NCBI GenBank assembly: GCA_028284345.1
Contig: JANQRY010000006.1
Coordinates: 434,001 to 498,000 of the forward strand
DNA: 64,000 nt
From: Hyphococcus sp.
GTDB lineage: Bacteria > Pseudomonadota > Alphaproteobacteria > Caulobacterales > Parvularculaceae
Direction: 5' to 3'
Below are positions 5,084 to 46,539 of this stretch, one piece after another. A model generated the notes under the pieces. That model worked only from the letters and a program-made list of their open reading frames with translations. It had not been told where the DNA came from and searched no databases. The translations under genes were made by a program, and so were the position numbers. Positions within the stretch are counted from its first letter, which is position 1, and the number at the start of each line of letters is the position of its first letter.

Positions 5084-5098
5084 AGATATCCGATATCT
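5084..5098. promoter_or_regulatory. Class 1 operator box (perfect palindrome)
   Basis: AGATATC-C-GATATCT, with perfect 7-base arms around one central base; the best-formed member of the 15-site family. It lies between the methyltransferase start (5004) and the divergent GST, and on the minus strand it sits just 5' of a TAGACA/TAGTTT promoter-like pair. Confidence 0.75.
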
Positions 5099-5250
5099 TT
5101 CATAGTTGTAGGATGGCCTAGCGGCCCGCGGCGTCAATTCAACGCCGCTTCATTTTGCCTGTAAATGATATTGCGCAGTCGCATCCAAGGAGACGCGGTC
5201 GCGCGGCGGCGCCGACAGGTTTGATAGGTCCGGCGCACAATACGTTGCAG

Positions 5251-5265
5251 AGTTATCATATATGT
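5251..5265. promoter_or_regulatory. Class 1 operator box
   Basis: AGTTATC-A-TATATGT, 40 bases upstream of the GST start at 5306. It matches the boxes at 11120, 17895 and 27750 closely. One of two boxes in the divergent methyltransferase/GST intergenic region, so each gene has its own. Confidence 0.72.
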
Positions 5266-5305
5266 GCGACACTCCGACAACACCAGAAACAGGGAGCGTC
5301 GAGAA

Positions 5306-5938
5306 ATGCGCCTATATCATTCGCCCATGAGCATCGCACTGTCCTGCCGGCTGGCTTTGGCGGCGGCCGACGCTGAACATGAGCTTGTTATCGTCAATGC
5401 GCTTGCCGGGGAAACAAAGCAGGACAAATTTTTGTCGACAAATCCGCTTGGCGAGGTCCCGATACTGGAGCACGACGGCGCGGTTCTGGGGCAAACCATT
5501 TCTATTCTGACGTTTATCGCAGATCACACCGGCAAAGGGTGGAATCACGCTTCGTCCATCGAACGCGCGAAAGCGTTTTCGATTATGGCCTTGGCTTCCT
5601 CAGAGATTCAGGGGTCGTGGAAGCTGGTCAACCGCCCGGAGCGATATGTTGAGGATGAAGCGGCGCGCGCGCAACTTGTCGATAACGCGACAGCCCGACT
5701 GGACGCCGCCTATGGCGAGGTCGATCGCCAACTTGGACAACTGGATGGCGATCGGGAGTTAGGGATCCTGGATTATTATCTTGGCGTATTCGGTCTTTGG
5801 AAAGTAATGGCGCCAGCAGGCGAAAACCTTTCACCCGCGCCGCGTGTCGAGGCTCTCAAGGACAAGGTTATGAGTTCGCCGAAACTCAAGGCCGTCATTG
5901 ATGAAGATATCGCGAGTTACAAGGCGCTTATAAGCTGA
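5306..5938 (+). CDS. Glutathione S-transferase family protein
   Basis: 210-residue cytosolic GST with the N-terminal thioredoxin-like domain (MRLYHSPMSIALSCRLALA, then the cis-proline stretch NPLGEVPILEHDG near residue 50) and an alpha-helical C-terminal domain. The N-terminal Ser/Cys region (SIALSC) resembles beta-class GSTs, where a serine or cysteine activates glutathione; which residue does so here is not certain. I chose the ATG at 5306; an upstream ATG at 5264 lacks family similarity. It is first in an apparent operon with an acyl-CoA ligase and an alpha/beta hydrolase, under the box at 5251. It probably conjugates or removes glutathione from a catabolic intermediate (inference from context). 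Confidence 0.85.
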   Translation: MRLYHSPMSIALSCRLALAAADAEHELVIVNALAGETKQDKFLSTNPLGEVPILEHDGAVLGQTISILTFIADHTGKGWNHASSIERAKAFSIMALASSEIQGSWKLVNRPERYVEDEAARAQLVDNATARLDAAYGEVDRQLGQLDGDRELGILDYYLGVFGLWKVMAPAGENLSPAPRVEALKDKVMSSPKLKAVIDEDIASYKALIS

Positions 5939-6152
5939 CAAGCGCGCAGACTCGCAACGATTAACGCACGGCATTCTCAAGTTTGGCGGGCCGCCGAGGA
6001 CATAAGAATGGCCTGAAGCCATGGCGGCCGGCGCTTCCACGAGGATAGGCGCGGCGAAGCAGCGGCGGCCAAGACTGACGCGATCATCGGTGCGCCAATA
6101 GAACCGCTTGCCCAGGTTATCTGTAACAAGACGAGTAAACAGAGAATCCGCC

Positions 6153-7796
6153 ATGCCTTTCCGTTATGCGAATCCGACCGCAGAGACTCATGCGCAACCG
6201 CTCACCATAGGAAACCTTCTGAACTCGACAGATCGTCGCGACGCCGATCAGGTAATCGTTTACCGCGACCAGAAGCGACTGACCTATACTGATCTTCGCG
6301 ATCGCATCGGTCGCCTGGCGACGACGCTGGAAGCAGCGGGCGCCGAGGCGGGATCCACCATCGCGGTGCTGGATTGGGACAGCCATCGATATCTGGAGTG
6401 CTTTTTCGCCGTTCCGATGATCGGCGCCGTGCTGCAAACCGCCAATATCCGCCTCGCGTCGTCGCAACTTCTTTATACGCTCAATCATGCGAAGGCCGAG
6501 ATCCTGCTGGTTCATCGCGACTTCTGGCCCGTGATTGAAGCCATCCGCGAGGAACTCAGTCATGTCCGCTCGATTATTGCGATATCCGATGGCGACGCTG
6601 GCGAGATACCGGCCTGGTGCATCGGCGAATATGAAGCCCTCATCCAGTCGAACCGTCCGCGGGTTACGTTTATCGAGGTCGACGAGAACGCGCTGGCGAC
6701 GACCTTTTACACCAGCGGGACGACCGGTCTGCCCAAAGGCGTCTGCTTCTCCCATCGTCAAATCGTTCTGCACACCCTTGCATCTGTCGCCGCCTTCGCG
6801 TCAGCAGCGGGTCCCGGCTTTCGGCGCGACGATGTCTATATGCCGCTCACGCCGATGTTTCACGTCCATGCGTGGGGTTTTCCATTCGCCGCCACAATGC
6901 TTGGCATGAAGCAGGTTTATCCGGGCAAGTACGAAGCGGAGCGGCTGCTCCAGTTGCGACGGGACGAAGGGGCGACCTTCTCGCATTGCGTGCCGACTGT
7001 TCTGCAAATGGTCATCGAAACGGCGATCGCCGCGGGCGAGCGCCTCGACGGCTGGCAAATCCTCATTGGCGGCAGCGCCTTGACGCCCTCCCTTTATGAA
7101 AAAGCGACGTCGCAAGGCGCTTATGTCACCACCGGGTACGGCATGTCCGAGACCTGTCCGATGATTTCGGTGAACTGGCACGGCGACGAACCCTACGATT
7201 CAACGCGCGGCGGCTTGCCGATCCCGCTCGTGCAAGCGAAGATCGTCGATCCTGACAACAATACGCTGCCCGACGACGATGAAGCGCTTGGCGAGCTTGT
7301 CTTGCGGTCGCCCTGGTTGACGCCGTGTTACGTGGATAACGAACCGGCGTCCGAAGCGCTCTGGCGCGGCGGCTGGATGCACACCCAGGATGTCGCCTCA
7401 ATTTCCCCGAGCGGCTCCATTCAAATTCGCGACCGCCTCAAGGATGTGATCAAGAGCGGCGGCGAATGGATTTGCTCCCTGTCGCTTGAGCAGATCATCG
7501 CCGCGCATCCCGATGTCGCCGAAGTTGCGGTCGTCGGCGTTCCCGACCCCGTCTGGCAGGAACGGCCCGTCGCGGTCATTGTCCCTCGCGAGGCTGAAAA
7601 AGCGCCGACCCTTGAGGCAATATGCAAGACCCTCGACACCGCCGTCGTGTCCGGCGAGATCAGCCGCTATGCGGTGATAGACAAGCTTATTTGCCTCGAC
7701 GCCCTGCCCCTTACAAGCACTGGAAAGATAGACAAGAAAGCGCTCCGCGCGGCGATTGCCGACAACAGTGCGGCCGCTGCCGGGGCGAACGGCTAA
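6153..7796 (+). CDS. AMP-dependent acyl-CoA synthetase/ligase
   Basis: 547-residue adenylate-forming enzyme that activates a carboxylic acid to its CoA thioester with ATP. The P-loop TTFYTSGTTGLPKG (near residue 180), the motif VTTGYGMSETCP (near 325), the hinge GSIQIRDRLKDVIKSGGE and the C-terminal catalytic lysine region LPLTSTGKIDKKAL are all present. It is of the AlkK/medium-chain fatty-acid or aromatic-acid ligase type; the substrate cannot be read from sequence. I start at the ATG at 6153 (MPFRYANPT), whereas an upstream ATG at 6108 adds only a non-family leader. It lies 214 bases after the GST, so it may have its own promoter; a degenerate half-box is present at 6115. An alpha/beta hydrolase follows. 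Confidence 0.9.
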   Translation: MPFRYANPTAETHAQPLTIGNLLNSTDRRDADQVIVYRDQKRLTYTDLRDRIGRLATTLEAAGAEAGSTIAVLDWDSHRYLECFFAVPMIGAVLQTANIRLASSQLLYTLNHAKAEILLVHRDFWPVIEAIREELSHVRSIIAISDGDAGEIPAWCIGEYEALIQSNRPRVTFIEVDENALATTFYTSGTTGLPKGVCFSHRQIVLHTLASVAAFASAAGPGFRRDDVYMPLTPMFHVHAWGFPFAATMLGMKQVYPGKYEAERLLQLRRDEGATFSHCVPTVLQMVIETAIAAGERLDGWQILIGGSALTPSLYEKATSQGAYVTTGYGMSETCPMISVNWHGDEPYDSTRGGLPIPLVQAKIVDPDNNTLPDDDEALGELVLRSPWLTPCYVDNEPASEALWRGGWMHTQDVASISPSGSIQIRDRLKDVIKSGGEWICSLSLEQIIAAHPDVAEVAVVGVPDPVWQERPVAVIVPREAEKAPTLEAICKTLDTAVVSGEISRYAVIDKLICLDALPLTSTGKIDKKALRAAIADNSAAAAGANG

Positions 7797-10230: not shown

Positions 10231-10929
10231 CTAATGCATCCGTTCGCTGAGTTTCAGATCAAGCGCGCCCGCTTCTGAAGAAAAGAAGGAAAATCCGCGA
10301 CCGGCATAGGCGATGAGCGGATCGTCAGCCGCGAGCAGCGGCAACGTTCCGATTTTTCCCGCCCAGATGAACACGCCCAACATACACATGTCGGCGAAAT
10401 TCGGTTCGTCTCCGCCGATAAACGGCTGGGCAGCAATCGTCTGGCGGATCGGCTCGAATGAGCGGCGAGCGTCCTGCAGGCGCTCCTCGCGGTCCGCCAC
10501 AACCTCCTCAAGCGTCTGGCCCCACGCCGCTTCGCGCGAGCTCCGGTAATAGTCCCGATCCTCCGGCGCCACGCAATGGAGGGCGTCGAGCGTGTAGACC
10601 TTCAAAAGCTCGGTGCGGATGACATGCATCAGCCAATGGTCGAAGAACCCGGCCATCGCCCGATCAGCCGGGCTTTCAAACAGTGAAGGCGCGTCGGGAT
10701 AGGCCTCTTCAAGGTAGTCAATTATGCCCCAACCGTCGTCGATCTCTCGATCCCCGTCGACCATGATCGGCACGGTCTGATATCGGCCGCCAAGAACATT
10801 CGCCATCTCCGAGAACAGGACGGGTTTCGCCTCGTAATCGAGATGTTTCTTCGCCAACGCGAACTTTATTCGCCAGACATACGGGCAGACTTGCGTTCCG
10901 TCAGCGACCGCGCGCTCGTACAGTTGCAT
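10231..10929 (-). CDS. LigE-like (beta-etherase family) glutathione S-transferase, copy 1
   Basis: 232-residue GST whose signatures match the LigE/LigP etherase group: CPYVWRIKFALAKKHL near the start, RDYYRSSREAAWGQTLEEV, and PNFADMCMLGVFIW with LLAADDPLIAY at the C-terminus. LigE and LigP of sphingomonads use glutathione to cleave the beta-aryl ether bond of lignin dimers. The sequence supports family membership, not that exact reaction. The ATG at 10929 is preceded by GAGGGG. A class 1 box (10999-11013) lies 70 bases upstream and an MFS transporter gene follows, probably in the same transcript. A close paralogue sits at 26697-27410. The pair could serve different stereoisomers, as LigE/LigP and LigF do (inference). 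Confidence 0.85.
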   Translation of the reverse strand: MQLYERAVADGTQVCPYVWRIKFALAKKHLDYEAKPVLFSEMANVLGGRYQTVPIMVDGDREIDDGWGIIDYLEEAYPDAPSLFESPADRAMAGFFDHWLMHVIRTELLKVYTLDALHCVAPEDRDYYRSSREAAWGQTLEEVVADREERLQDARRSFEPIRQTIAAQPFIGGDEPNFADMCMLGVFIWAGKIGTLPLLAADDPLIAYAGRGFSFFSSEAGALDLKLSERMH

Positions 10930-10998: not shown

Positions 10999-11013
10999 TC
11001 TTATCAGATATGC
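10999..11013. promoter_or_regulatory. Class 1 operator box
   Basis: TCTTATC-A-GATATGC, upstream of the LigE-like GST (start 10929, minus strand). On that strand it is followed within 3 bases by TTGCAT and about 16 bases later by TAATCA, a promoter-like pair. Confidence 0.68.
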
Positions 11014-11119: not shown

Positions 11120-11134
11120 ACTTATCATATATGT
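11120..11134. promoter_or_regulatory. Class 1 operator box
   Basis: ACTTATC-A-TATATGT, upstream of the MFS operon at 11312. The 45 bases from here rightward resemble the region at 27750, with TTGCCG and, 18 bases on, CATGAT as a putative promoter. The shared layout suggests that one promoter was copied from the other. Confidence 0.72.
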
Positions 11135-11311: not shown

Positions 11312-12646
11312 GTGAGTCAGGAAAGCAAGGCGCCGCTGGGACTCCCGGATAAGAACCTGCCGGGCGCGTGGCGTTCATTGTCTGTGTTCGTCCTGTTATC
11401 CGGCCTGTCCGTCTTCGACCGTCAGATCCTGACCCTGATGGTCGAGCCCATCAAACAGGATCTGGGCCTTTCCGACTTTCAGATCGGCATCCTCCAAGGG
11501 CTGGTCTTTGCAATCTTCTATAGCGTTGCGGCCCTGCCGCTCGGTTGGATGGCCGATCGCTACCCGCGCCGGCCGATTATCTGGCTCGGCGTGACCACCT
11601 GGAGTTTGTTTACGTCCGCATGCGGTCTCGCCAACAGTTTCGTAAGCCTCGTCATCGCCCGCATGGGCGTCGGCGCCGGCGAGGCGTCTCTATCGCCCGC
11701 CGCTTATTCAATGCTTGCAGACCTGTTCAAACCCTCGCGGCTTACCCTTGCATTGTCGATCATGATGATCGGCATGAACCTCGGCAACGGTATTGCGATC
11801 GGCCTCGGCGGCGCCATCATTACCTTCGCTGAAAAGGGCGGAACCTGGGTGCTGCCCCTGTTTGGCGAGTTGAAGTCCTGGCAGTTCGTTTTCTTCGTCG
11901 CCGGGTTGCCCGGCCTCGTGCTGGGGTTGTTGGTCTTCACCTTTCGCGAGCCGGTGCGCCGCGGCCGGTTGCATGAAAGCAAAGGCCCTGAACTCTCCGA
12001 GACCTTTCGGTTCATCGCCGCCAATCGGGCCTTCTTCGCCGCCCACTTCATCGGTTTTGGTCTGCTTTCCACCGTCGGATGGGCCTTCTTCAGCTGGCTG
12101 CCGGTCTATATGATCCGCGAATTCGGATGGACGATCGGCCGTATCAGCGCGCCGCTCGCGCTGATCACCGGCGTCGGCGCGACGATCGGCACGCTGGCCA
12201 TGGGATGGCTGGTGGATCGATTGTTCGGGAACGGACGACTGAACGCCCATCTGCTGGTTTGCATGGGCATCGCAGCCTGCATGGCCGTTCTCGGCGTCAT
12301 CGCCTTCAGGATTACGGATCCGCATATCTTCCTGCTGATTGTCACGCCGATTATTTCGATCATGTCCCTGGGAGGAACCGCCTCGGCGGCCTTGCAGATC
12401 GTGGCGCCCAATGAAATGCGCGGGCAGATCAGCGCGATGTTCCTGCTGGTCATCAGCGGCTTTGGCTTAGGCCTCGGCCCTGTGGTCGTGGGCGCGCTCA
12501 CGGATTTCGTCTTCCAGGACGAAGCGCGCATTGGCGACTCGCTCACCGTGATCTTCGCCGTCCTGGCGCCGGCCTCTGCATTTGCCATGTGGCTGGGCCT
12601 TGGTCCCATGCGCGTCGCCGTCGAAAAGGCGCAACAAAGGAGTTAG
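11312..12646 (+). CDS. MFS transporter (spinster-like), copy 2
   Basis: 444-residue inner-membrane transporter, paralogue of the gene at 8754-10109 over its full length. The TM2-TM3 loop GWMADRYPRRPIIWLG, GRLHESKGPELSETF in the central loop, and IVAPNEMRGQISAM in TM10-11 are conserved. The start is uncertain: I take the GTG at 11312, which gives VSQESKAPLGLPDKNLPGAW, similar to the paralogue's pre-TM1 region. A TTG at 11282 is also in frame but lies inside the leader remnant. The region 11239-11310 encodes a 23-codon leader with a strong ribosome-binding site that ends one base before this GTG. The SDR gene at 12651 follows 4 bases after the stop, so the two form an operon under the box at 11120. 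Confidence 0.9.
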   Translation: MSQESKAPLGLPDKNLPGAWRSLSVFVLLSGLSVFDRQILTLMVEPIKQDLGLSDFQIGILQGLVFAIFYSVAALPLGWMADRYPRRPIIWLGVTTWSLFTSACGLANSFVSLVIARMGVGAGEASLSPAAYSMLADLFKPSRLTLALSIMMIGMNLGNGIAIGLGGAIITFAEKGGTWVLPLFGELKSWQFVFFVAGLPGLVLGLLVFTFREPVRRGRLHESKGPELSETFRFIAANRAFFAAHFIGFGLLSTVGWAFFSWLPVYMIREFGWTIGRISAPLALITGVGATIGTLAMGWLVDRLFGNGRLNAHLLVCMGIAACMAVLGVIAFRITDPHIFLLIVTPIISIMSLGGTASAALQIVAPNEMRGQISAMFLLVISGFGLGLGPVVVGALTDFVFQDEARIGDSLTVIFAVLAPASAFAMWLGLGPMRVAVEKAQQRS

Positions 12647-14107: not shown

Positions 14108-14122
14108 ACCTATCTGATATGA
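14108..14122. promoter_or_regulatory. Class 1 operator box (first of a pair)
   Basis: ACCTATC-T-GATATGA in the divergent intergenic region between the peroxiredoxin and the FMN dehydrogenase. Its centre lies 19 bases from the next box, close to two helical turns, so two dimers could bind on nearly the same face. Confidence 0.68.
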
Positions 14123-14126: not shown

Positions 14127-14141
14127 ACATATCTGATAAGT
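14127..14141. promoter_or_regulatory. Class 1 operator box (second of a pair)
   Basis: ACATATC-T-GATAAGT, followed at once by TTGCCA on the plus strand. It serves the FMN dehydrogenase at 14208 and, with the box at 14108, perhaps also the divergent peroxiredoxin. Confidence 0.7.
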
Positions 14142-17894: not shown

Positions 17895-17909
17895 AGTTAT
17901 CATATACGT
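17895..17909. promoter_or_regulatory. Class 1 operator box (proximal to TonB receptor 1)
   Basis: AGTTATC-A-TATACGT, about 145 bases before the receptor start. It is paired with the box at 17921, centre to centre 26 bases. Confidence 0.68.
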
Positions 17910-17920: not shown

Positions 17921-17935
17921 AGTTATAATATATGT
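17921..17935. promoter_or_regulatory. Class 1 operator box (distal, degenerate)
   Basis: AGTTATA-A-TATATGT. It differs from the core at one base in each half-site but keeps the outer arms, and together with the 17895 box it makes a tandem array upstream of the TonB receptor. Confidence 0.58.
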
Positions 17936-21881: not shown

Positions 21882-21918
21882 GGCGAACCTCAATAATCGG
21901 ATGTTTTCGGAAGACGGA

Positions 21919-22858: not shown

Positions 22859-22873
22859 AGATATCTGATATGT
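22859..22873. promoter_or_regulatory. Class 1 operator box
   Basis: AGATATC-T-GATATGT, 83 bases before the methyltransferase copy 2 start. On the minus strand it is followed by TGGACA and 17 bases later TACGTT. It controls the five-gene hydratase/aldolase operon. Confidence 0.75.
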
Positions 22874-23007: not shown

Positions 23008-23022
23008 AGATATCAGATAGGT
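23008..23022. promoter_or_regulatory. Class 1 operator box with no clear target gene
   Basis: AGATATC-A-GATAGGT, a strong match. It could act from a distance on the leftward operon (232 bases from its start), but its sequence context looks like that of boxes serving a rightward gene, and only the small ORF at 23072 lies that way. Confidence 0.62.
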
Positions 23023-23267: not shown

Positions 23268-24149
23268 TCAGCTATCGACGAAATCATCGAACGAAAATCG
23301 GTGCGCTGCGAGCCGGCTCCAGTTGTCGCGAATGGCCTCGTCAAAACATTTGCGCATGGCGTTCGCGGCGGCGCTCGGATCCTTGCGCGCGATCGCCCGG
23401 ACAATCGCCTTGTGTATCCTCACTTGCGCCTGCTTCTGAGCCTTGGTCGTGCATTTTCGCCAAGCTTCTCGCGTGGCGACGCGCGTAATGGGAGAAAAAG
23501 AAGCCAGAATCTGGGCAAACAGGACGTTGTGGCTGGCCCGTGCGATGGCGTAGTGAAACTCTGCGTTATATTGTGAAACTTTATCAACATTGTTGATATT
23601 CAATACGATCGCTTCAACAATGTCCTGAATCTCGGCTAGCTCTTCTTCAGTGCGAACGGTCGCCGCCAATTCGACGGCTCGGATTTCAACGGTTTTTCGG
23701 ACCTCCCAAACATCCATGATAGGTATTTGCGACGTGTTGAAGCCATGAACAATGGAGGTTGCGAATAGCGAGCCGTCTACGGGACTGACTTTCGGTTTCC
23801 GGCCCCGAGCGATGTCAATGATCTGCAGCGCGCCAAGCGCGCCAAACGCCTCGCGCATAACGGCCCGGCTCACGCCGAGTTCGTCGGCGAAATATTTCTC
23901 GCCCGGAAGCGTGTCGCCCGGCCGAAGTCCCTGATCATGTAAATAGTTTGCGACGGCGTGTATCGCCTGTTGCACGAGCGAACCTTCTTCTGCGCCCGAA
24001 TCGCCATTCGCCGAGGATGCGCCGTTTTTGGCGATGCTTTTTACGTTAACCAAAGGCTCCGCGTTTTCGCGTCCAAGCGAAGCGTTCTTGTGGCCGGCGC
24101 GCTTGCGCGTTGCGGGCCGCTTGGTGCGGGGGGCGGTGGAGCTGCTCAT
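23268..24149 (-). CDS. GntR-family (FadR/FCD) transcriptional regulator 1
   Basis: 293-residue regulator. A basic, disordered-looking N-terminal extension (residues 1-55, many Lys/Arg) precedes the GntR winged helix (PGDTLPGEKYFADELGVSRA, then VMREAFGALGALQII, residues about 75-125). The C-terminal FCD ligand domain follows, with EVRKTVEIRAVELA and the metal-binding histidine region AEFHYAIARASHN and RIHKAIVRAI. A GGAAG ribosome-binding site precedes the ATG at 24149. A class 1 box at 24333 lies in the divergent region shared with the aldolase-amidase operon. Its central position and the recurrence of one palindromic box make it the best candidate regulator of the whole 4-35 kb region (inference). 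FCD regulators usually bind a carboxylic-acid effector and usually repress. Confidence 0.9.
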   Translation of the reverse strand: MSSSTAPRTKRPATRKRAGHKNASLGRENAEPLVNVKSIAKNGASSANGDSGAEEGSLVQQAIHAVANYLHDQGLRPGDTLPGEKYFADELGVSRAVMREAFGALGALQIIDIARGRKPKVSPVDGSLFATSIVHGFNTSQIPIMDVWEVRKTVEIRAVELAATVRTEEELAEIQDIVEAIVLNINNVDKVSQYNAEFHYAIARASHNVLFAQILASFSPITRVATREAWRKCTTKAQKQAQVRIHKAIVRAIARKDPSAAANAMRKCFDEAIRDNWSRLAAHRFSFDDFVDS

Positions 24150-24332: not shown

Positions 24333-24347
24333 AGATATCTGATATGT
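24333..24347. promoter_or_regulatory. Class 1 operator box, regulator/aldolase divergent region
   Basis: AGATATC-T-GATATGT, identical to the box at 22859. It lies 61 bases before the class II aldolase start and 184 bases from the GntR regulator start, so it could mediate both operon control and autoregulation. Confidence 0.74.
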
Positions 24348-27560: not shown

Positions 27561-27575
27561 AGTTGTCAGATAGGT
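27561..27575. promoter_or_regulatory. Class 1 operator box
   Basis: AGTTGTC-A-GATAGGT, with one core mismatch (G for A). Upstream of the LigE-like GST copy 2 and 189 bases from the next box, in a 468-base divergent region (27411-27878) that otherwise holds only the two promoters. Confidence 0.62.
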
Positions 27576-27749: not shown

Positions 27750-27764
27750 AGTTATCATATATCT
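27750..27764. promoter_or_regulatory. Class 1 operator box
   Basis: AGTTATC-A-TATATCT, upstream of the quinone oxidoreductase operon (27879). It is followed at once by TTGCGG and 18 bases later by CATGAT, the same layout as at 11120. Confidence 0.73.
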
Positions 27765-33207: not shown

Positions 33208-33221
33208 GTTTTCCTTACCCA

Positions 33222-34124: not shown

Positions 34125-34139
34125 AGGTATATGATATCT
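34125..34139. promoter_or_regulatory. Class 1 operator box, SDR/glyoxalase divergent region
   Basis: AGGTATA-T-GATATCT. TTGACC starts one base after it on the plus strand, an excellent -35, with TTACGG about 17 bases on. The right half-site is perfect and the left is degenerate. It can serve the rightward glyoxalase-GST operon and perhaps the leftward SDR operon. Confidence 0.68.
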
Positions 34140-34681: not shown

Positions 34682-34799
34682 GCGCTGAAGCGTTCGGCGT
34701 CCCACTACGTGATTACCGCCCCCGCCGCCGTTGAGGCCGCGTTGGCGATCACTCCATTCAGCGCGCCGCGGCGACGCCCAAGCCGACCAGGAGAAAGCA

Positions 34800-38243: not shown

Positions 38244-38443
38244 TCTGTATTTCCTCGCTCGACGGCAGCTTTGGATTTAGCGCCGACGCCCCAGTGTTCT
38301 TTGTCAACTTCTGTCAAAATGATGCGGATGGACTCTTCCTTGACGTCGAGCGCACGCATCGCGCCCTCGGCGAGTTCGCGAATTAACGATGCTTTTTGGT
38401 CGCTGGTGCGCCCCTTTAGGATTTTCACGTCGATGATGGGCAT
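38240..38443 (-). CDS. 4-oxalocrotonate tautomerase family protein
   Basis: 67-residue tautomerase that interconverts 2-hydroxymuconate and 2-oxo-3-hexenedioate. Proline directly after the initiator Met (MPIIDVKILKGRTSDQK) is the catalytic base once Met is removed, and the beta-alpha-beta length is right. The usual Arg11-equivalent is within KGRTSDQ. GCAGGA precedes the ATG at 38443. The class 2 box at 38556-38569 is 113 bases upstream. It supplies the tautomerase of the meta-cleavage branch whose dehydrogenase and decarboxylase lie in the 40597 operon. Confidence 0.88.
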   Translation of the reverse strand: MPIIDVKILKGRTSDQKASLIRELAEGAMRALDVKEESIRIILTEVDKEHWGVGAKSKAAVERGNTE

Positions 38444-38555
38444 ATCAGGTCCTGCGTCCTGCCTTCGCGGTTAGCTCAAAAGACGCCAGGCCATCCCGGC
38501 AAAGGCAATTCCGAAACGCGTCCTAATATCGATGCGTGGAAACACTCTTTCCCAA

Positions 38556-38569
38556 AAGTGTATACAGTT
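38556..38569. promoter_or_regulatory. Class 2 operator box
   Basis: AAGTGTATACAGTT, the clearest member of the class, upstream of the tautomerase-FAH operon (start 38443, minus strand) and within 25 bases of the SDR 3' end. Outer arms AAGTG and CAGTT are near-complementary around TATA. Confidence 0.62.
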
Positions 38570-38590
38570 ATGTGAAAAGGTCAAGCCGAA

Positions 38591-39358: not shown

Positions 39359-39609
39359 GCTTTCATTCGCTCCCTGCCGAAATCAATCTCAATATCGGCC
39401 GCGCCGCCATGCGCTCTCGCGCAAAATATGCGGGCGGCACTCAAGCGCGCCATATCGCAAAGCGCCTCTTGCGCCGTACCGAGCGCAACGAGGACCAGCG
39501 CCCGACAAAAGTGGACGCACTTTGCGCCAGCACCCTACGCCCAGGCAGATACTCAGTTCAAGACTTTTGCGCTTGTATGCTAGTATTTATTGCAATATAG
39601 GGGCCGTTC

Positions 39610-40410
39610 ATGTTTTTCAGGATTGACCAATCTGCATCCAGTCTGCATTTTGCGGATATGGCTTTAGATTCCAATATTCTGGCCCCGTTGCCGCGGTCGG
39701 ACAGTCGTCGCACCGCGGTTGAGGTCTATGAGACGCTGCAGGCGTCGATCCTGAGCGGAAAGCTCAAACCCGGCGCCATTCTCTCGCAGGTTGAAGTTGC
39801 GCGTTCGCTGAACGTCAGCCGAACGCCCGTGCGCGAAGCCATGCGCATGCTCCAGGAAAGCGGGCTCCTTTCCGGCGAGCCCAATCATCGCAGCCAGGTC
39901 GTCGGCTTCGACCCGGAAGATATTGAAGCGCTCTATGTAAAACGCATTGTGCTTGAGGCGCTTGGCGTCTCGATCACGACGCAGAAAATGTCGCCGGCGC
40001 TGCTTAAAGAATTAAAGCAAGTGATCAAAGAACTGGAGAGCGACAAGGCGCACAAAGAATTCGCAGTCTGGCAAAGCCACCACCGACGCCTGCATCACTT
40101 GGTTGTATCGGAAGCAGGCGACGCAATTGTCGCAGAACTTCAAAATCTGGAACGGCGCAGCGAACGCTATCAATCGACCTACAAGGGCCAACACCTAACC
40201 GGCTGGTGGCAGCGCGGCGAGGCGGAACATCGCGCGTTAATTGACGCCATGGCGGCGAAAGACCCTTGCAAATCATCAGAGCTGGCGGCGCGTCACCTTG
40301 CCCGAACAGCATTGGAGTTGCTCGCTTCGCTGGCGCCGGAATATGACTCATCAACCTTGCGCGCGAGCCTGAAGTTCGCGATTGCCGGCGCGGCCGGGAG
40401 CAAAAAATAG
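39610..40410 (+). CDS. GntR-family (FCD) transcriptional regulator 2
   Basis: 266-residue regulator. The GntR winged helix is in LQASILSGKLKPGAILSQ, then VEVARSLNVSRTPVREAM (residues about 40-90), and the FCD effector domain follows with HRRLHHLVVSEAGD and GEAEHRALIDAMAAKD. A GGGGCC ribosome-binding sequence precedes the ATG at 39610; a later ATG at 39658 would remove the non-conserved first 16 residues. It sits among operons bearing class 2 boxes and is the natural candidate to bind them (inference). The intergenic region with the divergent SDR has no clear class 1 or class 2 box. Confidence 0.88.
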   Translation: MFFRIDQSASSLHFADMALDSNILAPLPRSDSRRTAVEVYETLQASILSGKLKPGAILSQVEVARSLNVSRTPVREAMRMLQESGLLSGEPNHRSQVVGFDPEDIEALYVKRIVLEALGVSITTQKMSPALLKELKQVIKELESDKAHKEFAVWQSHHRRLHHLVVSEAGDAIVAELQNLERRSERYQSTYKGQHLTGWWQRGEAEHRALIDAMAAKDPCKSSELAARHLARTALELLASLAPEYDSSTLRASLKFAIAGAAGSKK

Positions 40411-40534
40411 ACCTTGGGCGCTAAATCCGCGCCCGGGAAAGAAAGTAAGGCTCGCCGCTTCGGACGGTGAGCGCCCTTAAAAGGAACTATCCAGATCGAA
40501 AGCAAATGCGCGGACGGCAGACCGTAAACCCATA

Positions 40535-40552
40535 TAGGACGTATAAGTCCTA
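40535..40552. promoter_or_regulatory. 18-bp perfect palindrome upstream of the meta-cleavage operon
   Basis: TAGGAC-GTATAA-GTCCTA, 6-base perfect arms with an AT-rich centre, 45 bases before the start at 40597. It matches neither class 1 nor class 2. It may overlap a promoter -10 (TATAAG) and act as an operator for one of the local regulators. Confidence 0.55.
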
Positions 40553-40596
40553 AAAATTACTGCAAACGGATCGCGACAGCGATGCAAGGATTAAAA

Positions 40597-42081
40597 ATGC
40601 AAACCGAAAACCAGACGAGCCCAGCGTTGCGGAGCTGCAAAAACTATGTCGGCGGAGAGTTCGTTGACGGCGGCAGACCATTTGAAATCCGCAATCCCGC
40701 CACCGGCGACGTGCACGCCCATGCGTTTGAAGCCGATGCGGATATCGTTGACGCCGCCGTCGCCGCCGCGGCGAACGCGCTCAAAGGCGACTGGGGACAG
40801 ATGCCGCTCGCCAAGCGACGACAAATGCTAAATGCGATCGCGGATGGCATCGAAGCGCGCTTTGACGACTTTGTTGAGGCGGAAATCGCCGATACCGGCA
40901 AGCCTTACTCCCTCGCCGATCATCTCGATATCCCCCGGGGCGCGGCGAATTTTCGAATTTTCTCCGATGCGGTCGCCAACCTCTCTACGGAAACGTTCCA
41001 GCAGGACACGCCGGACGGCGGCAAAGCGCTGAACTACGCCGTCAGAAAACCTCTCGGGGTCGTTGGCATTATTTCGCCCTGGAACTTGCCGCTATTGCTC
41101 ATGACGTGGAAAGCCGCGCCGGCGATGGCGTGCGGCAACGCCGTCATTGTAAAACCGTCAGAAGAAACGCCGTCGTCGACGACGTTGCTCGGCGAGGTCA
41201 TGTCGTCGGTGGGCGTTCCGGACGGCGCATTCAACGTCGTGCATGGATTTGGGCCCGATTCAGCAGGCGAGCTTTTAACGAAACATCCCGGCGTTCGCGC
41301 AATCACCTTTACCGGCGAAACGCGCACGGGCGAAGCGATCATGAAAGCGGCCGCGGCGAATGTTAAAGCGCTGTCTTTCGAACTCGGCGGCAAGAATGCG
41401 GCCATTGTTTTTGCCGATGCGGATATGGACGCCGCCATCGCGGGATTGGCCCGGGCGGCGTTTTTGAACACCGGCCAGGTTTGCCTCGCGCCGGAACGCA
41501 TCTACGTTGAAAGATCAGTATTCGATACATTCGTAGCCGGCCTCAAGGGCAAGGCCGAGGCGCTCAAGCCCGGCCTGCCCCATGCCGACGGCGTCGATTT
41601 TGGGCCGCTCATTTCTGAAGAGCACCGTGAAAAAGTGCTTGGCTACTACCAGCTTGCCGTCGACGAAGGCGCAACCGTCGTTACCGGCGGCGGCGCGCTC
41701 GATCTGGATGACGCGGCGGCGAGAGGCTATTTCGTTGAACCAACAGTATGGACAGGCCTTAGCCATGACGCGCGCGTCTGCCGCGAAGAGATATTCGGTC
41801 CGGCTTGCGCGGTGATCCCGTTCGACACGGAAGAAGAAGCCATTCGTCTGGCGAATGATTCTGAATATGGCCTCGCTTCCTCGATTTGGACGACCGACAT
41901 GAGCCGCGCCCATCGCGTCGGCGAGGCCATGGAAGTCGGCATATCCTGGGTGAACTGCTGGTTCTTACGGGATCTGCGCACGCCGTTCGGCGGCGTAAAA
42001 ATGTCCGGGATCGGACGCGAAGGCGGCGTGCATTCGATCAACTTTTATTCCGAGCCGTCCAATATCTGCATCAAGCTCTAA
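40597..42081 (+). CDS. dmpC: 2-hydroxymuconic semialdehyde dehydrogenase
   Basis: 494-residue aldehyde dehydrogenase of the XylG/DmpC type, oxidising the ring-cleavage semialdehyde to 2-hydroxymuconate. The N-terminus NYVGGEFVDGGRPFEIRNP is typical, ISPWNLPLLLMTWKAAPAM lines the cofactor site, FELGGKNAAIVFADADMD carries the catalytic Glu, and NTGQVCLAPERIYVERS carries the catalytic Cys (near residue 300). The tail GVKMSGIGREGGVHSINFYSE is a semialdehyde-family mark. I start at the ATG at 40597, with AAGGA nine bases upstream; the ATG at 40582 lies inside a longer leader. First of six tightly packed genes. Confidence 0.94.
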   Translation: MQTENQTSPALRSCKNYVGGEFVDGGRPFEIRNPATGDVHAHAFEADADIVDAAVAAAANALKGDWGQMPLAKRRQMLNAIADGIEARFDDFVEAEIADTGKPYSLADHLDIPRGAANFRIFSDAVANLSTETFQQDTPDGGKALNYAVRKPLGVVGIISPWNLPLLLMTWKAAPAMACGNAVIVKPSEETPSSTTLLGEVMSSVGVPDGAFNVVHGFGPDSAGELLTKHPGVRAITFTGETRTGEAIMKAAAANVKALSFELGGKNAAIVFADADMDAAIAGLARAAFLNTGQVCLAPERIYVERSVFDTFVAGLKGKAEALKPGLPHADGVDFGPLISEEHREKVLGYYQLAVDEGATVVTGGGALDLDDAAARGYFVEPTVWTGLSHDARVCREEIFGPACAVIPFDTEEEAIRLANDSEYGLASSIWTTDMSRAHRVGEAMEVGISWVNCWFLRDLRTPFGGVKMSGIGREGGVHSINFYSEPSNICIKL

Positions 42082-42097
42082 CGACCGGGAGGATCAG

Positions 42098-42607
42098 GTG
42101 ACCGAAACCGCAAAACCCGAGCCTGCGCTCAACTTGAACTTTTACAGCCACGCCACCCTGGAATGTCGGGATATCGTTCAAACCAGAAAGTTCTTCGAGG
42201 AGTTTTTGGGGTTCGAAACGGTTCAGATGGCCGATGTGTCTTTTTGGGCGCGCCTTGGCGGCGATCAGATCATTGTGGTGGTGAAAAGTCCGAGCAGTGA
42301 GAAACCGACAATGCCCTTTCTCAATCACAACGGCCTTGACGTCGCCACAGAAAAAGAAGTCGACGCCGCATATGAAATCGTCAAACGCGATCAGGAGAAA
42401 TGGGGCATCAAAAAGATCACGCGCCCCGTCGTCCAGCATGGCACCTATTGCTTTTATTTTTGGGACGCGGACGACAACGCCTGGGAAATTCTCTGTAACC
42501 CGAAAGGCGGCTATTCGTGGGGTTTTGATCTCGGCGATCAGGAAGGCGCGGGACATATGAGCCGCGATTTCAAGCGTCCGGAATCGACGATTACCAAGGA
42601 GCGTTGA
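42098..42607 (+). CDS. Single-module VOC-family protein
   Basis: 169-residue vicinal-oxygen-chelate protein. It begins a VOC module with NLNFYSHATLECRDIVQTRK and FFEEFLGFETVQ, has MPFLNHNGLDVA mid-way and YCFYFWDADDNAWEIL at the end, giving possible ligands His, His and Glu. At about half the length of a type I extradiol dioxygenase, it lies directly before one (1-base gap). It could be a ring-cleavage or isomerase partner, a glyoxalase-like enzyme, or an activating chaperone for the dioxygenase. Starts GTG at 42098 with GGGAGGATC upstream. Confidence 0.82.
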   Translation: MTETAKPEPALNLNFYSHATLECRDIVQTRKFFEEFLGFETVQMADVSFWARLGGDQIIVVVKSPSSEKPTMPFLNHNGLDVATEKEVDAAYEIVKRDQEKWGIKKITRPVVQHGTYCFYFWDADDNAWEILCNPKGGYSWGFDLGDQEGAGHMSRDFKRPESTITKER

Positions 42608-42608
42608 T

Positions 42609-43502
42609 ATGGGCGCCGATCTGAGAGACATCCGCTACGTTCGCATGGGAACCGATAATCTGGACGAATGCGCGCAATATGCGACGGAAATTCTGGGGCT
42701 TGAACTTGTCGGCCGAGAGGCCAATGCGGTTTACTTGCGCGGCGACGATCGCGACCACAACGTCGTTTACACCCACGGCCGTTCAGGCGGACACGTTGTC
42801 GGTTTTCAGCTGGCTTCAATGGATGCGCTCGACCGCGCCGCAACGGAGTTCGAGCGCGCCAAAATCAAGGTGAAATACGGAACTTCCGACGAACGCGAGC
42901 AACGCCGGGTCCGCGGGCTTATCACGATCGAAGATCCCACAGGCAATGTGATCGACCTCGTTGCGCAACCGGCGGCGAGCGGAAACCGCTACTATGGAAC
43001 ACGGGACGCCGGGATCACGTCCTTCAGCCATGTCGGCCTTCGCACCTCGGACGCAAAAACCGACGAAGCCTTCTGGGTCAATTGGCTGAGCGCAAAGGTG
43101 AGCGACTGGATCGGCGATGCGCCGCTCTTGCGGATTGACGACGTGCACCACAAAGTTGCGCTTTTTCCGTCGCAGTTCCCCGGCGTTCAGCATGTAAACT
43201 TTCAAGTCGAAACCCATGACGACATCATGCGGTCTTACTACTTCCTGAAAAAGAAGAATGTGAGAATTGCGTTTGGACCGGGGCGTCATCCGACCTCCGG
43301 CGCCCGCTTTCTCTACTTCTACGGACCGGATGACATGATTTATGAGTATTCAACGGGCGTCAGGCTTATTACGGAAGAAGATGAAAAAACATATCTTCCC
43401 CGACAGTTCCCGATGACGTCATCCAGTTTTTGCATGTGGGGCTCAGAGCCTGACATCGCCGAATTTAAATCCAAAAAAGAGCCTGCATCGCATGCCGCCT
43501 GA
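42609..43502 (+). CDS. Type I extradiol ring-cleavage dioxygenase
   Basis: 297-residue two-module extradiol dioxygenase (catechol 2,3-dioxygenase/BphC/HsaC group). Iron ligands are His in ITSFSHVGLRTSD, His in GVQHVNFQVETHDD and Glu in MIYEYSTGVRL; the catalytic His is in DDVHHKVALFPSQ and another in GPGRHPTSGARF. The N-terminal module is non-catalytic as in the family. It opens the aromatic ring next to the diol to give a semialdehyde for the dehydrogenase at 40597. Substrate range is unknown: the following decarboxylase-like gene points toward a carboxylated catechol (inference). It is third in the operon and its stop overlaps the next gene by 11 bases. Confidence 0.92.
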   Translation: MGADLRDIRYVRMGTDNLDECAQYATEILGLELVGREANAVYLRGDDRDHNVVYTHGRSGGHVVGFQLASMDALDRAATEFERAKIKVKYGTSDEREQRRVRGLITIEDPTGNVIDLVAQPAASGNRYYGTRDAGITSFSHVGLRTSDAKTDEAFWVNWLSAKVSDWIGDAPLLRIDDVHHKVALFPSQFPGVQHVNFQVETHDDIMRSYYFLKKKNVRIAFGPGRHPTSGARFLYFYGPDDMIYEYSTGVRLITEEDEKTYLPRQFPMTSSSFCMWGSEPDIAEFKSKKEPASHAA

Positions 43503-44178
43503 TCGTCCGCGCACCCTGCGGCTTGCAGCGCGCGCAATGGCGCGACACGGTCTTGCGCATGCATATGGGCATGTCAGTTTGCGGTTGAATGAAGGCAGTT
43601 TTTTGGTGACGCCAGCGGCGCCGTTGGGCGCCGTCACAACATCCGAAGCGGGGATCGCCGTCGCCTTGGATGCGGCGATGCCGGACGCCGTATTGCCTGA
43701 AGTGCGCATCCATCGTGAGATATATCGACGACGACCTGAAATCGGCGGGATTTGCCGGTTCCAGTCGCCGGCCGTAATGGCGCTTTCCGCATTAGGAAAA
43801 ACGCCCCGCGTCCTGCACGGGTTGGGCGCCTATTTTGCGCCCTCGCCGCCCTTTTGGCCGCATACGGACCTTGTCCGCGACGACGCATCGGCGGAAAAGG
43901 TCGCCGCAGCGATGGGAGAAAACGCCGCGATTGTCCTGCGCGGAAATGGCGCCGTGACGGTCGGCGAAACGCTGCAAGAAGCCGCCAGCATGGCGTTCTT
44001 TCTTGAAGACGCCGCACGCATGGAACTCGCGCTTCTTCCGGCGTCAAGTCATGGCCTGGAGCCGCAACCTTATTCCGAAGAACAGGCAAAGCGCCGCGCC
44101 ATCAAGGCGGGCGCGTTGATTGAACGCATGTGGCAATTTCTTTGTTTAGAGGACCCGGAATGGAAATCCAGACCATGA
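43492..44178 (+). CDS. Class II aldolase/adducin-family protein lacking metal ligands
   Basis: 228-residue adducin-fold protein. It keeps HGLAHAYGHVSLRLNEGSF and PEVRIHREIYRRRPEIGG, but the HxH site reads CRFQS instead of HHHS and the third-His motif HHG reads RGNG (VLRGNGAVTVGE), so all three usual zinc histidines are gone. HCOMODA-type decarboxylases such as CmtD of p-cumate breakdown belong to this fold and follow an extradiol dioxygenase in their operons, as here; those remove the ring carboxylate from the cleavage product. This protein is either a metal-free variant or a pseudoenzyme. It overlaps the dioxygenase stop by 11 bases and the hydratase start by 19. Confidence 0.8.
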   Translation: MPPDRPRTLRLAARAMARHGLAHAYGHVSLRLNEGSFLVTPAAPLGAVTTSEAGIAVALDAAMPDAVLPEVRIHREIYRRRPEIGGICRFQSPAVMALSALGKTPRVLHGLGAYFAPSPPFWPHTDLVRDDASAEKVAAAMGENAAIVLRGNGAVTVGETLQEAASMAFFLEDAARMELALLPASSHGLEPQPYSEEQAKRRAIKAGALIERMWQFLCLEDPEWKSRP

Positions 44179-44987
44179 CGAACGCACTCTCTCCTGAAAC
44201 CATCGCAGAGCAAGCCATGTTGCTGCGCGCGTGCTATGCAAACAAAAGCTGTATGGCGCCAATTCGCGAAGCGCACTCGGAAGCGACCATTGACGACGCC
44301 TATGCCATCCAGGCGATGAACACGGCTTTCTGGGAAGAAGAAGGCAGAGTAGTGGCCGGCGCGAAGATCGGTCTGACATCCAAATCGGTGCAAAACCAAC
44401 TGGGCGTTGATCAACCCGATTTCGGTTCTATCTTCGCCGATATGGAAATCCCCGATGGCGCCGCCGTAGAGCCGGGTCGCCTGATCCAGCCAAAGGTGGA
44501 AGCGGAAATCGCCTTCATCATGGGGCGCCCTCCAAATACCGCAAAACTGACGACGTCAGAGCTTATCAACAGCATCGCCTATGCGTTGCCGGCGATTGAA
44601 ATTGTCGACAGCCGCATTGCGGACTGGAATATCGGGATCGTTGACACGATCGCCGACAACGCGTCGGCGGGATTGTATTTGACCGGCCCCTCCCCCGTCG
44701 CCATCGACAAGCTTGACCTGCGCCATTGCGGCATGGTGCTCGAAATAAACGGCGAACCGGTATCGTTTGGCGCCGGCGCCGCTTGCCTTGGAAATCCTCT
44801 GAACGCGCTGCAATGGCTTGCCCGTAAAATGGCCGACCTTGGACGCCCGCTCCGGGAAGGCGACATCGTGCTTTCCGGCGCGCTCGGCCCGATGGCGGCG
44901 GTCAGTCCGGGAGACTATGTCGAGGCGCGGATCGAGGGATTGGGCGCGGCCCGTGTAAAATTTGAAAGGGGGGATGCAGATGCGTGA
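44160..44987 (+). CDS. dmpE: 2-hydroxypenta-2,4-dienoate hydratase, copy 2
   Basis: 275-residue FAH-fold hydratase, paralogue of 21054-21881. GAKIGLTSKSVQNQLGVDQP, the E-x-E metal site [22 protein letters not shown] and [15 protein letters not shown] are conserved. I start at the ATG at 44160, preceded by AGAGGA and overlapping the previous gene by 19 bases; a further start upstream is possible. In the dmp/xyl pathway hydratase and decarboxylase (next gene) form a complex, and here the two genes overlap by 8 bases. The duplicated hydratase suggests two operons recruited from related pathways. Confidence 0.92.
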   Translation: MEIQTMTNALSPETIAEQAMLLRACYANKSCMAPIREAHSEATIDDAYAIQAMNTAFWEEEGRVVAGAKIGLTSKSVQNQLGVDQPDFGSIFADMEIPDGAAVEPGRLIQPKVEAEIAFIMGRPPNTAKLTTSELINSIAYALPAIEIVDSRIADWNIGIVDTIADNASAGLYLTGPSPVAIDKLDLRHCGMVLEINGEPVSFGAGAACLGNPLNALQWLARKMADLGRPLREGDIVLSGALGPMAAVSPGDYVEARIEGLGAARVKFERGDADA

Positions 44988-45753
44988 CTTGATGGAGATT
45001 GCGGCTTGCCTCGACAACGCTGCAAAAGACGCGCAAGCGACAGCACAGCTCGAAGAATCCCTCACGCTTGAGGACGCCTATCGCGTGCAAGCGGCCTCGC
45101 TCGCCCGGCGCTATGAACGCGGCGAGACTCGTGTCGGCGTAAAAATGGGATTTACCAGCCGCGCCAAGATGGCCCAGATGGGCGTTGACGAAATGATCTG
45201 GGGCCGTCTTACAAACAAGATGCTCGTTGAGGATGGCGGCTCGATCGACTTTGCCGCTTATGTTCATCCCCGCGTTGAACCGGAAATCGCCTATGTATTG
45301 AAAGCGCCCTTGCCGGAGAAGGTTACGCCCGCCGGCGCTCTTGCCGCCGTGGGCGGCGTGGCGCCCGCGCTCGAAATTATCGACAGCCGTTACAAGGATT
45401 TCAAATTCTCGCTGACGGACGTCGTCGCCGACAACAGTTCTTCATCGGCGTTTGTCGTCGGACCGTGGGCTGATCCTGAAACGGATGTTTCCAACCTCGG
45501 CATGGTGCTTGAGATCGACGGCGAGCCCCGTCAGATCGGCTCTTCCGCCGCTATCCTCGGAAATCCCATTCGCTCCCTCGTCGCCGCCGCAAGATTGGCG
45601 GCGGAAGCAGGCGAGCCGCTCAAAGCCGGCGACGTCGTCATGGCTGGCGGCGCAACAGCGGCTGAGCACCTGGCGCCCGGGCAGCACGTTCGGGTCACCG
45701 TTCAACATCTCGGCAAAGCTGAATTTACCATCGACGGCGCGCGCGCCGACTAA
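44980..45753 (+). CDS. dmpH: 2-oxo-3-hexenedioate decarboxylase
   Basis: 257-residue FAH-fold decarboxylase (DmpH/XylI) that converts 2-oxo-3-hexenedioate to 2-hydroxypenta-2,4-dienoate. The signature GVKMGFTSRAKMAQMGVDEM, the HPRVEPEIAYVL metal site (E-x-E) and IEIIDSRYKDFKFSL-like region separate it from the hydratases. ATG at 44980 fits a GGGGGG ribosome-binding sequence six bases upstream, better than the ATG at 44974 or TTG at 44962. It is the last gene of the operon and is followed by a terminator-like hairpin. It pairs physically with the hydratase in known pathways. Confidence 0.94.
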   Translation: MRDLMEIAACLDNAAKDAQATAQLEESLTLEDAYRVQAASLARRYERGETRVGVKMGFTSRAKMAQMGVDEMIWGRLTNKMLVEDGGSIDFAAYVHPRVEPEIAYVLKAPLPEKVTPAGALAAVGGVAPALEIIDSRYKDFKFSLTDVVADNSSSSAFVVGPWADPETDVSNLGMVLEIDGEPRQIGSSAAILGNPIRSLVAAARLAAEAGEPLKAGDVVMAGGATAAEHLAPGQHVRVTVQHLGKAEFTIDGARAD

Positions 45754-45757
45754 CCCC

Positions 45758-45789
45758 CGCGCCTCCCGGCGCGCGACCACCGTTTTTTT
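45758..45789 (+). terminator. Candidate intrinsic terminator after the meta-cleavage operon
   Basis: CGCGCC-TCCC-GGCGCG hairpin (45758-45773) followed 9 bases later by seven Ts. The gap before the T-run is longer than ideal, so it is only a candidate. Confidence 0.5.
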
Positions 45790-45856
45790 GGATTTCATCT
45801 TTTTCGAAACCCTCTACACTGACCAGCCTACTTCAACCCGTGTTTAGGCTTGGCGT

Positions 45857-46306
45857 GTGACGGCGGATAAACTTGAAAAGGCGTTGCAGCATTTTAATCT
45901 GTTAGACGCCCCCGGCCATTTGCTTCGCCGCAATCATCAGAGGTCTTACGAAATATTCGCTCGATGCGTCGGCGGCGATATCACGCGCCAACAAGTGGCG
46001 GTTCTTGTCGCGCTCGCCAAGCAGCCCGGCGCGTCTCAGCGCCATCTGGTCGAAGCGACCGGGATCGACAAAAGCACCGCCAAAGAAATGATTGACCGCA
46101 TGGTGGCGCGAAAGTGGATTGAGCGAATGCGAGATCCCGAAGACAGCCGGGCCTGGGCCATGCGCCTGACGCCGACCGGCAGGAAGGCGCTCGCCGAGCG
46201 ATTGCCGGACGTAATTGCCGCGCAGGAGGAAATATTGGCGCCGCTGGCACCAGGCGATCAGCGAAAATTCCTGAAATATCTGCGCATCTTGATCGATTCT
46301 GACTGA
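45857..46306 (+). CDS. MarR-family transcriptional regulator
   Basis: 149-residue winged-helix regulator. The MarR helix-turn-helix is QRHLVEATGIDKSTAKEMID with the wing ERMRDPEDSRAWAMRLT (Asp-x-Arg motif), between dimerisation helices at both ends. It starts with GTG at 45857. It lies between the decarboxylase operon and the TonB receptor promoter, separated from the former by a terminator-like hairpin. MarR proteins of aromatic clusters commonly respond to phenolic acids or CoA-esters and repress. The local target could be its own promoter or the 40597 operon palindrome. Confidence 0.88.
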   Translation: MTADKLEKALQHFNLLDAPGHLLRRNHQRSYEIFARCVGGDITRQQVAVLVALAKQPGASQRHLVEATGIDKSTAKEMIDRMVARKWIERMRDPEDSRAWAMRLTPTGRKALAERLPDVIAAQEEILAPLAPGDQRKFLKYLRILIDSD

Positions 46307-46524
46307 TCGCCAGCCCGCTGCGCGCCACCCGCATCAATCTCCTTCGGCATTCGATCCCGACCGGTTGCGGGGACGCCCAAATGCCCGCTTGGCGTTTCGG
46401 CCGCGACCAGGAAACGCCAATTCTGGATGCAGATTGGCTGGCAAGGAGCGCACGGGACTCCCTCTATGTCGCTGAGCTTGCTTGCAAATACTGCCTATTT
46501 TCCCAGTTTTGGTGGAAAACCGGC

Positions 46525-46539
46525 GGTTATCAGATAGGC
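46525..46539. promoter_or_regulatory. Class 1 operator box upstream of TonB receptor 2
   Basis: GGTTATC-A-GATAGGC with perfect core TATCAGATA but weak outer bases. The only class 1 box right of 35 kb; it links this receptor to the 4-35 kb regulon. Confidence 0.62.

Follow-up and report, generated by a model that had tools for sequence, protein, structure and literature searches.

The 64,000-nucleotide stretch of Hyphococcus sp. DNA analysed here (GenBank assembly GCA_028284345.1, contig JANQRY010000006.1, positions 434,001 to 498,000; hereafter the window) carries an island of genes at 4141-35525 in which a 15-bp palindromic box, best written A-S-W-TATC-N-GATA-W-S-T, recurs fourteen times. 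Very probably these boxes are the operators of the island's own GntR regulator (23268-24149), which would act as an autoregulated, ligand-released repressor at the -35 element. The boxes are confined to the island, conserved in related genomes, located at promoters and coupled in their evolution to the gntR gene, and sequence comparisons strongly support the GntR protein as their predicted binder; binding itself, repression rather than activation, the operon structure and the effector are what we infer.

A scan of the window with the pattern ASWTATCNKATAWST at up to two mismatches yields 28 strand matches, corresponding to 14 places that all lie between 5084 and 34139, compared with an expectation of 1.36 (standard deviation 1.48, maximum 6) in 100 dinucleotide shuffles. 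These are exactly the first 14 of the 15 sites claimed in the initial annotation of the window. A weight matrix built from them, with the fifteenth site at 46525 left out, gives scores of 16.4-24.5; at a score of at least 15 it finds 14 places against a mean of 0.27 for 200 column-permuted matrices, and at a score of at least 12 it finds 16 against a mean of 1.57 and at most 9. The site at 46525 scores 12.5 and is absent from the matches with up to two mismatches. Based on the matrix scores and their column-permuted control, 14 boxes are secure and 46525 is not. The palindrome of the originally proposed consensus, ASWTATC-W-KATAWST, is real, but its centre base is not always W. The claim that every site is intergenic holds for all 14 strong boxes under a gene call resting on codon usage; the mechanical list of open reading frames does cover some of them (22219-22860, 22870-23439 and a GTG start at 5264), but the gene call does not keep these frames in that form. 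A further weak box (ACCTGTCTGATATAT, score 14.3) is present at 2331-2345, at the start of the gene 1-2346 (-) and divergent from the Lrp gene at 2446. The boxes and the regulator gene are located as follows.

5084..5098: box AGATATCCGATATCT, upstream of the methyltransferase gene 4141-5004 (-)
5251..5265: box, upstream of the glutathione S-transferase (GST) gene 5306-5938 (+)
10999..11013: box with the lowest score of the 14 (16.4), upstream of the beta-etherase-like GST gene 10231-10929 (-)
11120..11134: box, upstream of the major facilitator superfamily (MFS) transporter gene 11312-12646 and the short-chain dehydrogenase/reductase (SDR) gene 12651-13427 (+); -35-like TTGCCG 1 base downstream of the box
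14108..14122: box, first of a pair 19 bp apart, between the peroxiredoxin gene 13435-13953 (-) and the FMN-dependent alpha-hydroxyacid dehydrogenase gene 14208-15365 (+)
14127..14141: box, second of this pair
17895..17909: box, first of a twin 26 bp apart, upstream of the TonB receptor gene 15479-17770 (-)
17921..17935: box, second of this twin, with a one-base overlap with a -35-like TTGACG on the - strand
22859..22873: box, upstream of the presumed operon 18108-22776 (-)
23008..23022: box, second and farther upstream for the presumed operon 18108-22776
23268..24149 (-): FadR-type GntR regulator with GntR and FCD domains, the proposed binder
24333..24347: box, between gntR (-) and the class II aldolase/amidase genes 24402-26612 (+)
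27561..27575: box with one canonical GT half (AGTTGTC), upstream of the beta-etherase-like GST gene 26697-27410 (-)
27750..27764: box, upstream of the (+) genes for a zinc-type oxidoreductase (27858), an IlvD-type dehydratase (28884), a 3-hydroxyisobutyrate-dehydrogenase-like protein (30587) and an SDR (31465)
34125..34139: box, between the SDR/DUF6081 genes 32242-34001 (-) and the vicinal oxygen chelate (VOC)/GST genes 34241-35525 (+)
46525..46539: weak box-like site (score 12.5), upstream of the second TonB receptor gene (46598), membership uncertain

The confinement of the box is evident from a scan of the whole genome (3.41 Mb), for which the reversed pattern served as control. With at most one mismatch, 11 of the 12 distinct places fall inside the window, the sole exception being C7:126521, and the control gives 0+2 strand matches. 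With two mismatches there are 96 strand matches, 28 of them inside the window, against 83 for the control, and no excess over the control is seen beyond the window. The regulon is local to one accessory island, because the pattern is at background outside the window; the genome-wide count proposed with the initial annotation as a check has accordingly come out in its favour. Within the family, 9 of the 62 genomes surveyed have an exact match to the box, eight of these at a single place each. One box-like place (AAATATCAGATAAAT, G000:C4:508099-508113) lies alone about 10 kb past the window end.

Close relatives of the regulator are found in two named genomes, Sphingomonas sp. Root720 (72% identity) and Y57 (74%), and much of the island, including the boxes and the GntR gene, is present in both with an altered gene order. 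All eight Root720 boxes within one mismatch lie inside 24 kb, with none for the reversed control; Y57 likewise has eight, namely six in the cluster, one next to a hydratase gene where a different contig ends, and one elsewhere. In three aligned promoters the boxes stand out as stretches of high identity amid poorly conserved DNA. The 26-bp spacing of the twin boxes in the TonB promoter is the same in the window, Root720 and Y57, and a -35-like TTGACC is located at or adjoining the end of the equivalents of box 34125 in all three genomes. The box is locally confined and has been kept at matching operons of two Sphingomonas genomes despite the changed gene order, which supports the original proposal of one regulon. 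Four regulators were identified in the window, and the GntR gene at 23268 is the only one that matches the Root720 and Y57 regions (E up to 1e-10). The MarR gene at 45857, the second GntR gene at 39610 and the Lrp gene at 2446 have no match in these regions and were rejected as sources of the binder for this reason.

The promoter position had been noticed at the outset, in the form of boxes next to TTG hexamers resembling a -35 element. Of 37 site-orientations from the three genomes, 15 have a TTG whose first base falls at -1 to +2 relative to the box end, compared with 1-5 in nine shifted five-position windows, a count for which the sites and orientations were chosen by the authors and in which orthologous sites are not independent. 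Six of the 15 TTGs use the last T of the box itself.

Homologues of the regulator at E values of at most 1e-30 were sought in 398 genomes of the order, which take in all 62 genomes of the window's family, and were found in 20 genomes; the window's own genome is the sole member of its family among them. The other 19 proteins are 35-54% identical to the window's GntR, and the genes neighbouring them differ. Around each of these homologues 15-20 kb were examined (loci L038-L056), and all 5+5 palindromes were counted independently of the window's box. CTATC-N-GATAG has 10 matches in 10 of the 11 loci of one group (f4; 0.08 expected), where it ranks sixth after five GC-rich words, and 3 matches in all three loci of another (f3a; 0.01 expected), where it is among three tied first; it is not in the top 15 palindromes of a further group (f3b), and L056 belonged to no group. 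Fourteen of the 19 loci each contain a single copy of the word TATCNGATA, for which 0.03-0.18 are expected per locus. The generalised layout ASHTRTMNKAYADST is found exactly in 18 of the 19 loci at any distance, with 24 matches against none for the reversed pattern; allowing one mismatch raises these counts to 61 and 17, respectively. Of the 61 matches, 37 are found upstream of the gntR match at a distance of no more than 1.1 kb, and they cover all 19 loci. Twin boxes 22-24 bp apart are present in L038-L055, i.e. everywhere except L056, often as one AT form together with one hybrid or imperfect form, and 16 loci have an additional box form on that side at 4.2-5.5 kb; in L040 it stands about 50 bp before a TonB reading frame.

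Across these loci the box grades from the canonical GntR operator ACCTGTNNNACAGGT via hybrids to ACCTATCNGATAGGT; the forms range from ACCTGTATTACAGGT and ACCTGTCATACAGGT, which have the canonical GT-N3-AC arrangement, through ACCTGTCAGATAGGT to ACCTATCTGATAGGT. Position 3 of the box is mostly W in the clade of the window and C in the distant loci. Within the window, 13 of the 14 strong boxes have AT in both halves in place of GT/AC, and the remaining one (27561) is a hybrid. Judged by this series of sequences, the box is a canonical GntR operator whose GT/AC has apparently been changed to AT/AT, which gives an identity to a box that the initial annotation did not recognise.

The box and the regulator also occur together. 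Of the 20 genomes that have a homologue, 14 contain ASHTATCNGATADST, against 23 of the 378 that lack one (Fisher p 7e-12), and for ASCTATCNGATAGST the counts are 13 of 19 versus 2 of 378 (p 3e-18), the latter comparison leaving out the window's own genome, which has none; the p values are optimistic and serve as guides only, since the genomes are related and these patterns, like that of the layout, were fixed after the loci had been seen. In the 13 matching genomes with a homologue other than the window's own, the matched place falls inside the stretch around gntR. No match to the window's GntR (up to E 1) was found near the boxes of the homologue-free genomes in 20 regions from 18 of the 23 genomes, and these boxes are read as probable chance matches because of this lack of a GntR match nearby. 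With one mismatch allowed, the 20 regions, each chosen for one exact box, contain 27 matches against 17 for the reversed pattern.

By its domains the protein encoded at 23268-24149 is evidently a GntR regulator of the FadR type, with an N-terminal winged helix (PF00392, 34.1 bits, cut-off 27) and a C-terminal FCD domain (PF07729, 81.8 bits, cut-off 24.3). Measured against the TKGT/ACMA halves of FadR-subfamily operators, the window boxes are AT-type with one hybrid, and the loci of the homologues hold canonical and hybrid forms. The recognition-helix motif SRAV is present in 17 of 22 aligned proteins; all of these except L048 have TATCNGATA in their locus (16 of 17), as does one of the four proteins with SRPV (L055) but not the single one with SRTV (L056). 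The helix-turn-helix position hand-aligned to Arg-35 of FadR is Lys in the window clade, Gly or Ala in L038-L051 and Ser, Thr, Ala, Asn or Leu in the rest. A rule given in passages of PMC4494728 states that Arg at helix-turn-helix position 28 avoids A/T at site position 6/14; the window's GntR has Lys there, in agreement with it. As a discriminator between regulators this rule fails, the second GntR of the window being without Arg at that position as well in a hand alignment. The corresponding places of the FCD domain are Asn, His, His and Cys/Leu in the window clade (window, L006 and L007) versus Asp, His, His and His in the 19 distant homologues. DgoR uses Asp146, His150 and His195 for its metal site, whereas Ps5454 combines Asn at the first place with three His. 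The window clade may therefore bind metal less well, although a complete loss is not certain.

The closest known parallel in operator and position is DhdR of Achromobacter denitrificans, a GntR repressor whose footprinted operator GTTATCAGATAAC covers the -35 element and which is released by D-2-hydroxyglutarate, as described in sections of PMC8651671. In a comparison limited to the operators, GTTATCAGATAAC fits the inner 13 bp of the window consensus (S-W-TATC-N-GATA-W-S) and is an instance of SWTATCNGATAWS, but no window box is identical to it over all 13 bases. Inclusion of the regulator's own gene in a regulated operon and overlap of the operator with the -35 element are features of DhdR as well, insofar as these sections describe them. 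They differ from the window in that only one operon (dhdR-d2hgdh) is concerned there, against about a dozen transcription units and 14 boxes here, and in that d2hgdh comes next in the DhdR operon; the neighbours of the window's gntR are the class II aldolase and amidase genes, upstream and divergent, and the methyltransferase-hydratase-aldolase set downstream. The initial proposal of the FadR-type GntR as putative binder is favoured by the match in Root720 and Y57, the 19 of 19 loci with a box layout, the co-occurrence over 398 genomes and the fit of the DhdR operator.

Because the DhdR operator fits the window consensus, repression at the -35 element with a ligand as inducer appears to be the best reading. 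A dimer of the GntR/FCD regulator encoded in the island would read A-S-W-TATC-N-GATA-W-S-T, an operator in which G would have become A at the signature position of each half of the canonical GT-N3-AC. Without ligand, GntR would occupy sites on or adjoining the -35 elements of about a dozen transcription units, including its own gene, and would hold the island silent. An intermediate of the pathway, perhaps a 2-hydroxy acid, would bind the FCD domain and thereby release GntR, and this release would switch on uptake (TonB, MFS), the glutathione-dependent steps and the hydratase-aldolase lower pathway together. The position of box 24333 between gntR and the aldolase/amidase genes suggests autoregulation of GntR. 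A 2-hydroxy acid as effector is a reasonable guess and no more, made because of the two hydroxyacid dehydrogenases in the island and a GlcD-like oxidase in L040.

The same position would also suit an activator. A GntR protein that binds the same boxes and acts mainly as a ligand-dependent activator just upstream of the -35 element (class II position) would agree with the 15 of 37 site-orientations with a TTG at the box end, which would put the box centre at roughly -43 to -45, and the type of regulation is conditional to this extent. We consider this unlikely, as DhdR, whose operator fits this consensus, acts as a repressor and protects a region overlapping the -35 element (PMC8651671), and some boxes come so close to the start codon (in R38754 the ATG follows the box centre by about 27 bases) that repression fits better. 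Another regulator of the window as binder, either MarR (45857-46306) or the second GntR (39610-40410), is highly improbable: both are close to the island and belong, by family scan, to families that bind palindromes, but neither matches the box-bearing regions of Root720 and Y57, the block in which both reside (37326-46306) is without a strong box, and the 19 distant loci contain no match to MarR at E values up to 1e-3 and a single one to the second GntR (22% identity, E 1e-4, in L056). It is scarcely credible that the boxes have no specific binder and represent a dispersed repeat or an AT-rich feature of promoters; several contain -10-like strings such as TATGAT, but 11 of the 12 near-perfect places in the genome lie in one island, and the boxes stand out by their identity where the promoters have diverged and travel with gntR.

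Several observations count against the island's GntR as an autoregulated repressor of a strictly local regulon, in addition to the choice of patterns after inspection of the loci and the position that an activator would share. In Y57 one of the boxes falls outside the island, and two places are also found in this genome with the reversed control. The Root720 cluster has an IclR-type gene at its edge. The most distant homologue, L056, has, in place of the AT box, canonical GT-N3-AC forms, an exact one at 5.8 kb and one with a single-base deviation at 73 bp, and in L040 and L046 an AraC-type gene is located between the twin boxes and gntR, where a role of AraC is possible.

The genes next to the boxes look like a breakdown pathway. 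The presumed operon 18108-22776 (-) encodes a methyltransferase, a hydratase, an acetaldehyde dehydrogenase, an aldolase and a 2-hydroxyacid dehydrogenase; the 4-hydroxy-2-oxovalerate aldolase and the acetaldehyde dehydrogenase are both above the family cut-off and the hydratase is below it. Two related methyltransferases and four GST-like proteins are among the box neighbours, and two of the latter match the NCBIfam beta-etherase model at 185 and 179 bits (cut-off 440). The other neighbours comprise MFS and TonB transport, SDRs, peroxiredoxin, the FMN alpha-hydroxyacid dehydrogenase, class II aldolase and amidase, the IlvD-type dehydratase, a VOC protein and DUF6081; names for the TonB receptors and SDRs were assigned by eye, without a family scan. 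Both TonB receptors had been assigned to the regulon, and this stands for the receptor 15479-17770 with its twin boxes, but the receptor at 46598 is not securely in the set. Boxes 11120 and 27750 both precede similar promoter DNA (CTTGC ... GCGCATGAT), as if promoter and box had been duplicated. In L040 and L046, the only distant loci in which the gene families were read, a gamma-glutamyltransferase and the AraC-type gene occur in both, and L040 additionally contains MFS, esterases, the GlcD-like oxidase, TonB and SDR. Genes related to glutathione (gamma-glutamyltransferase, hydroxyacylglutathione hydrolase-like) occur close to relatives of the regulator, at L040 6509-8335, L046 2155-3897 and L059 2073-2801, which fits the abundance of GSTs in the window's island.

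The block 37326-46306 is meta-cleavage-like and has its own GntR and MarR; the matrix scan of the window finds no strong box within it, and it has no close counterpart in the Root720 and Y57 regions compared. Its 2-hydroxymuconic semialdehyde dehydrogenase is above the cut-off, and its extradiol-dioxygenase-like, decarboxylase-like and hydratase-like genes are below. The DUF6081 protein of the island is present in one of the 62 family genomes, the window's own, and on none of the plasmids searched; a plasmid search with GntR gave only matches below 60% identity, and no tRNA was found in the window.

Among known systems, the canonical operator of the FadR subfamily is TKGT-N2-3-ACMA (passages of PMC4494728), and LhgR has footprinted operators TAGTCTGACAA and TTGTCTGACAA of the GT form (parts of PMC8206213). 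The window boxes resemble them in length and symmetry, and the distant homologues have ACCTGTNNNACAGGT and hybrids in the same 15-bp layout; the difference from these systems lies in the AT halves, shared by all strong window boxes but the hybrid 27561. BioR and NanR are the operator exceptions listed within the subfamily in the same passages of PMC4494728. BioR also has AT replacing GT, but its operator TTATMKATAA, as given there, is an even 10-bp sequence without an odd centre base, located at biotin genes, whereas the window box has one centre base. An identity with BioR was rejected on account of this spacing, and no biotin gene was found among those island proteins that were scanned. DgoR (PDB 7c7e) is the closest solved structure by sequence (E 5.5e-14) and, according to an excerpt of PMC7674646, a FadR-family repressor of sugar-acid catabolism; it differs in that its metal-site Asp aligns with Asn in the window protein. 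Among the papers listed by a search of the open-access literature for GntR with forms of TATCNGATA, judged by title, only the DhdR paper concerns a GntR operator, and no publication recognisable as this regulon, by titles and abstract starts, was among the matches listed for sphingomonad GntR regulons. The kind of system is known, but the operator variant and the size of the regulon are new, and the regulon is filed apart from those of DhdR and BioR.

The graded operators raise the possibility, which we put forward tentatively and would not yet call probable, that this GntR lineage of the order has been caught with its operator in transition from GT-N3-AC over GT/AT hybrids to AT-N3-AT. Meanwhile its regulon would have grown from about three boxes, of which two form a twin by the regulator and the third lies a few kb away, to fourteen over a whole island encoding an undescribed glutathione-dependent breakdown pathway with beta-etherase-like GSTs, paired methyltransferases and a hydratase-aldolase set. 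If true, such a lineage would allow residue-by-residue tests of how a repressor changes its specificity yet keeps its place in the cell, and the graded operators beside homologous regulators would make the switch from GT to AT in GntR specificity testable. With a tight local regulon and 14 natural operators of graded match, the system may also provide a sensor part. A regulator, its operator and a target list for an accessory catabolic island would be at hand, through which the inducer, and hence the substrate, can be found.

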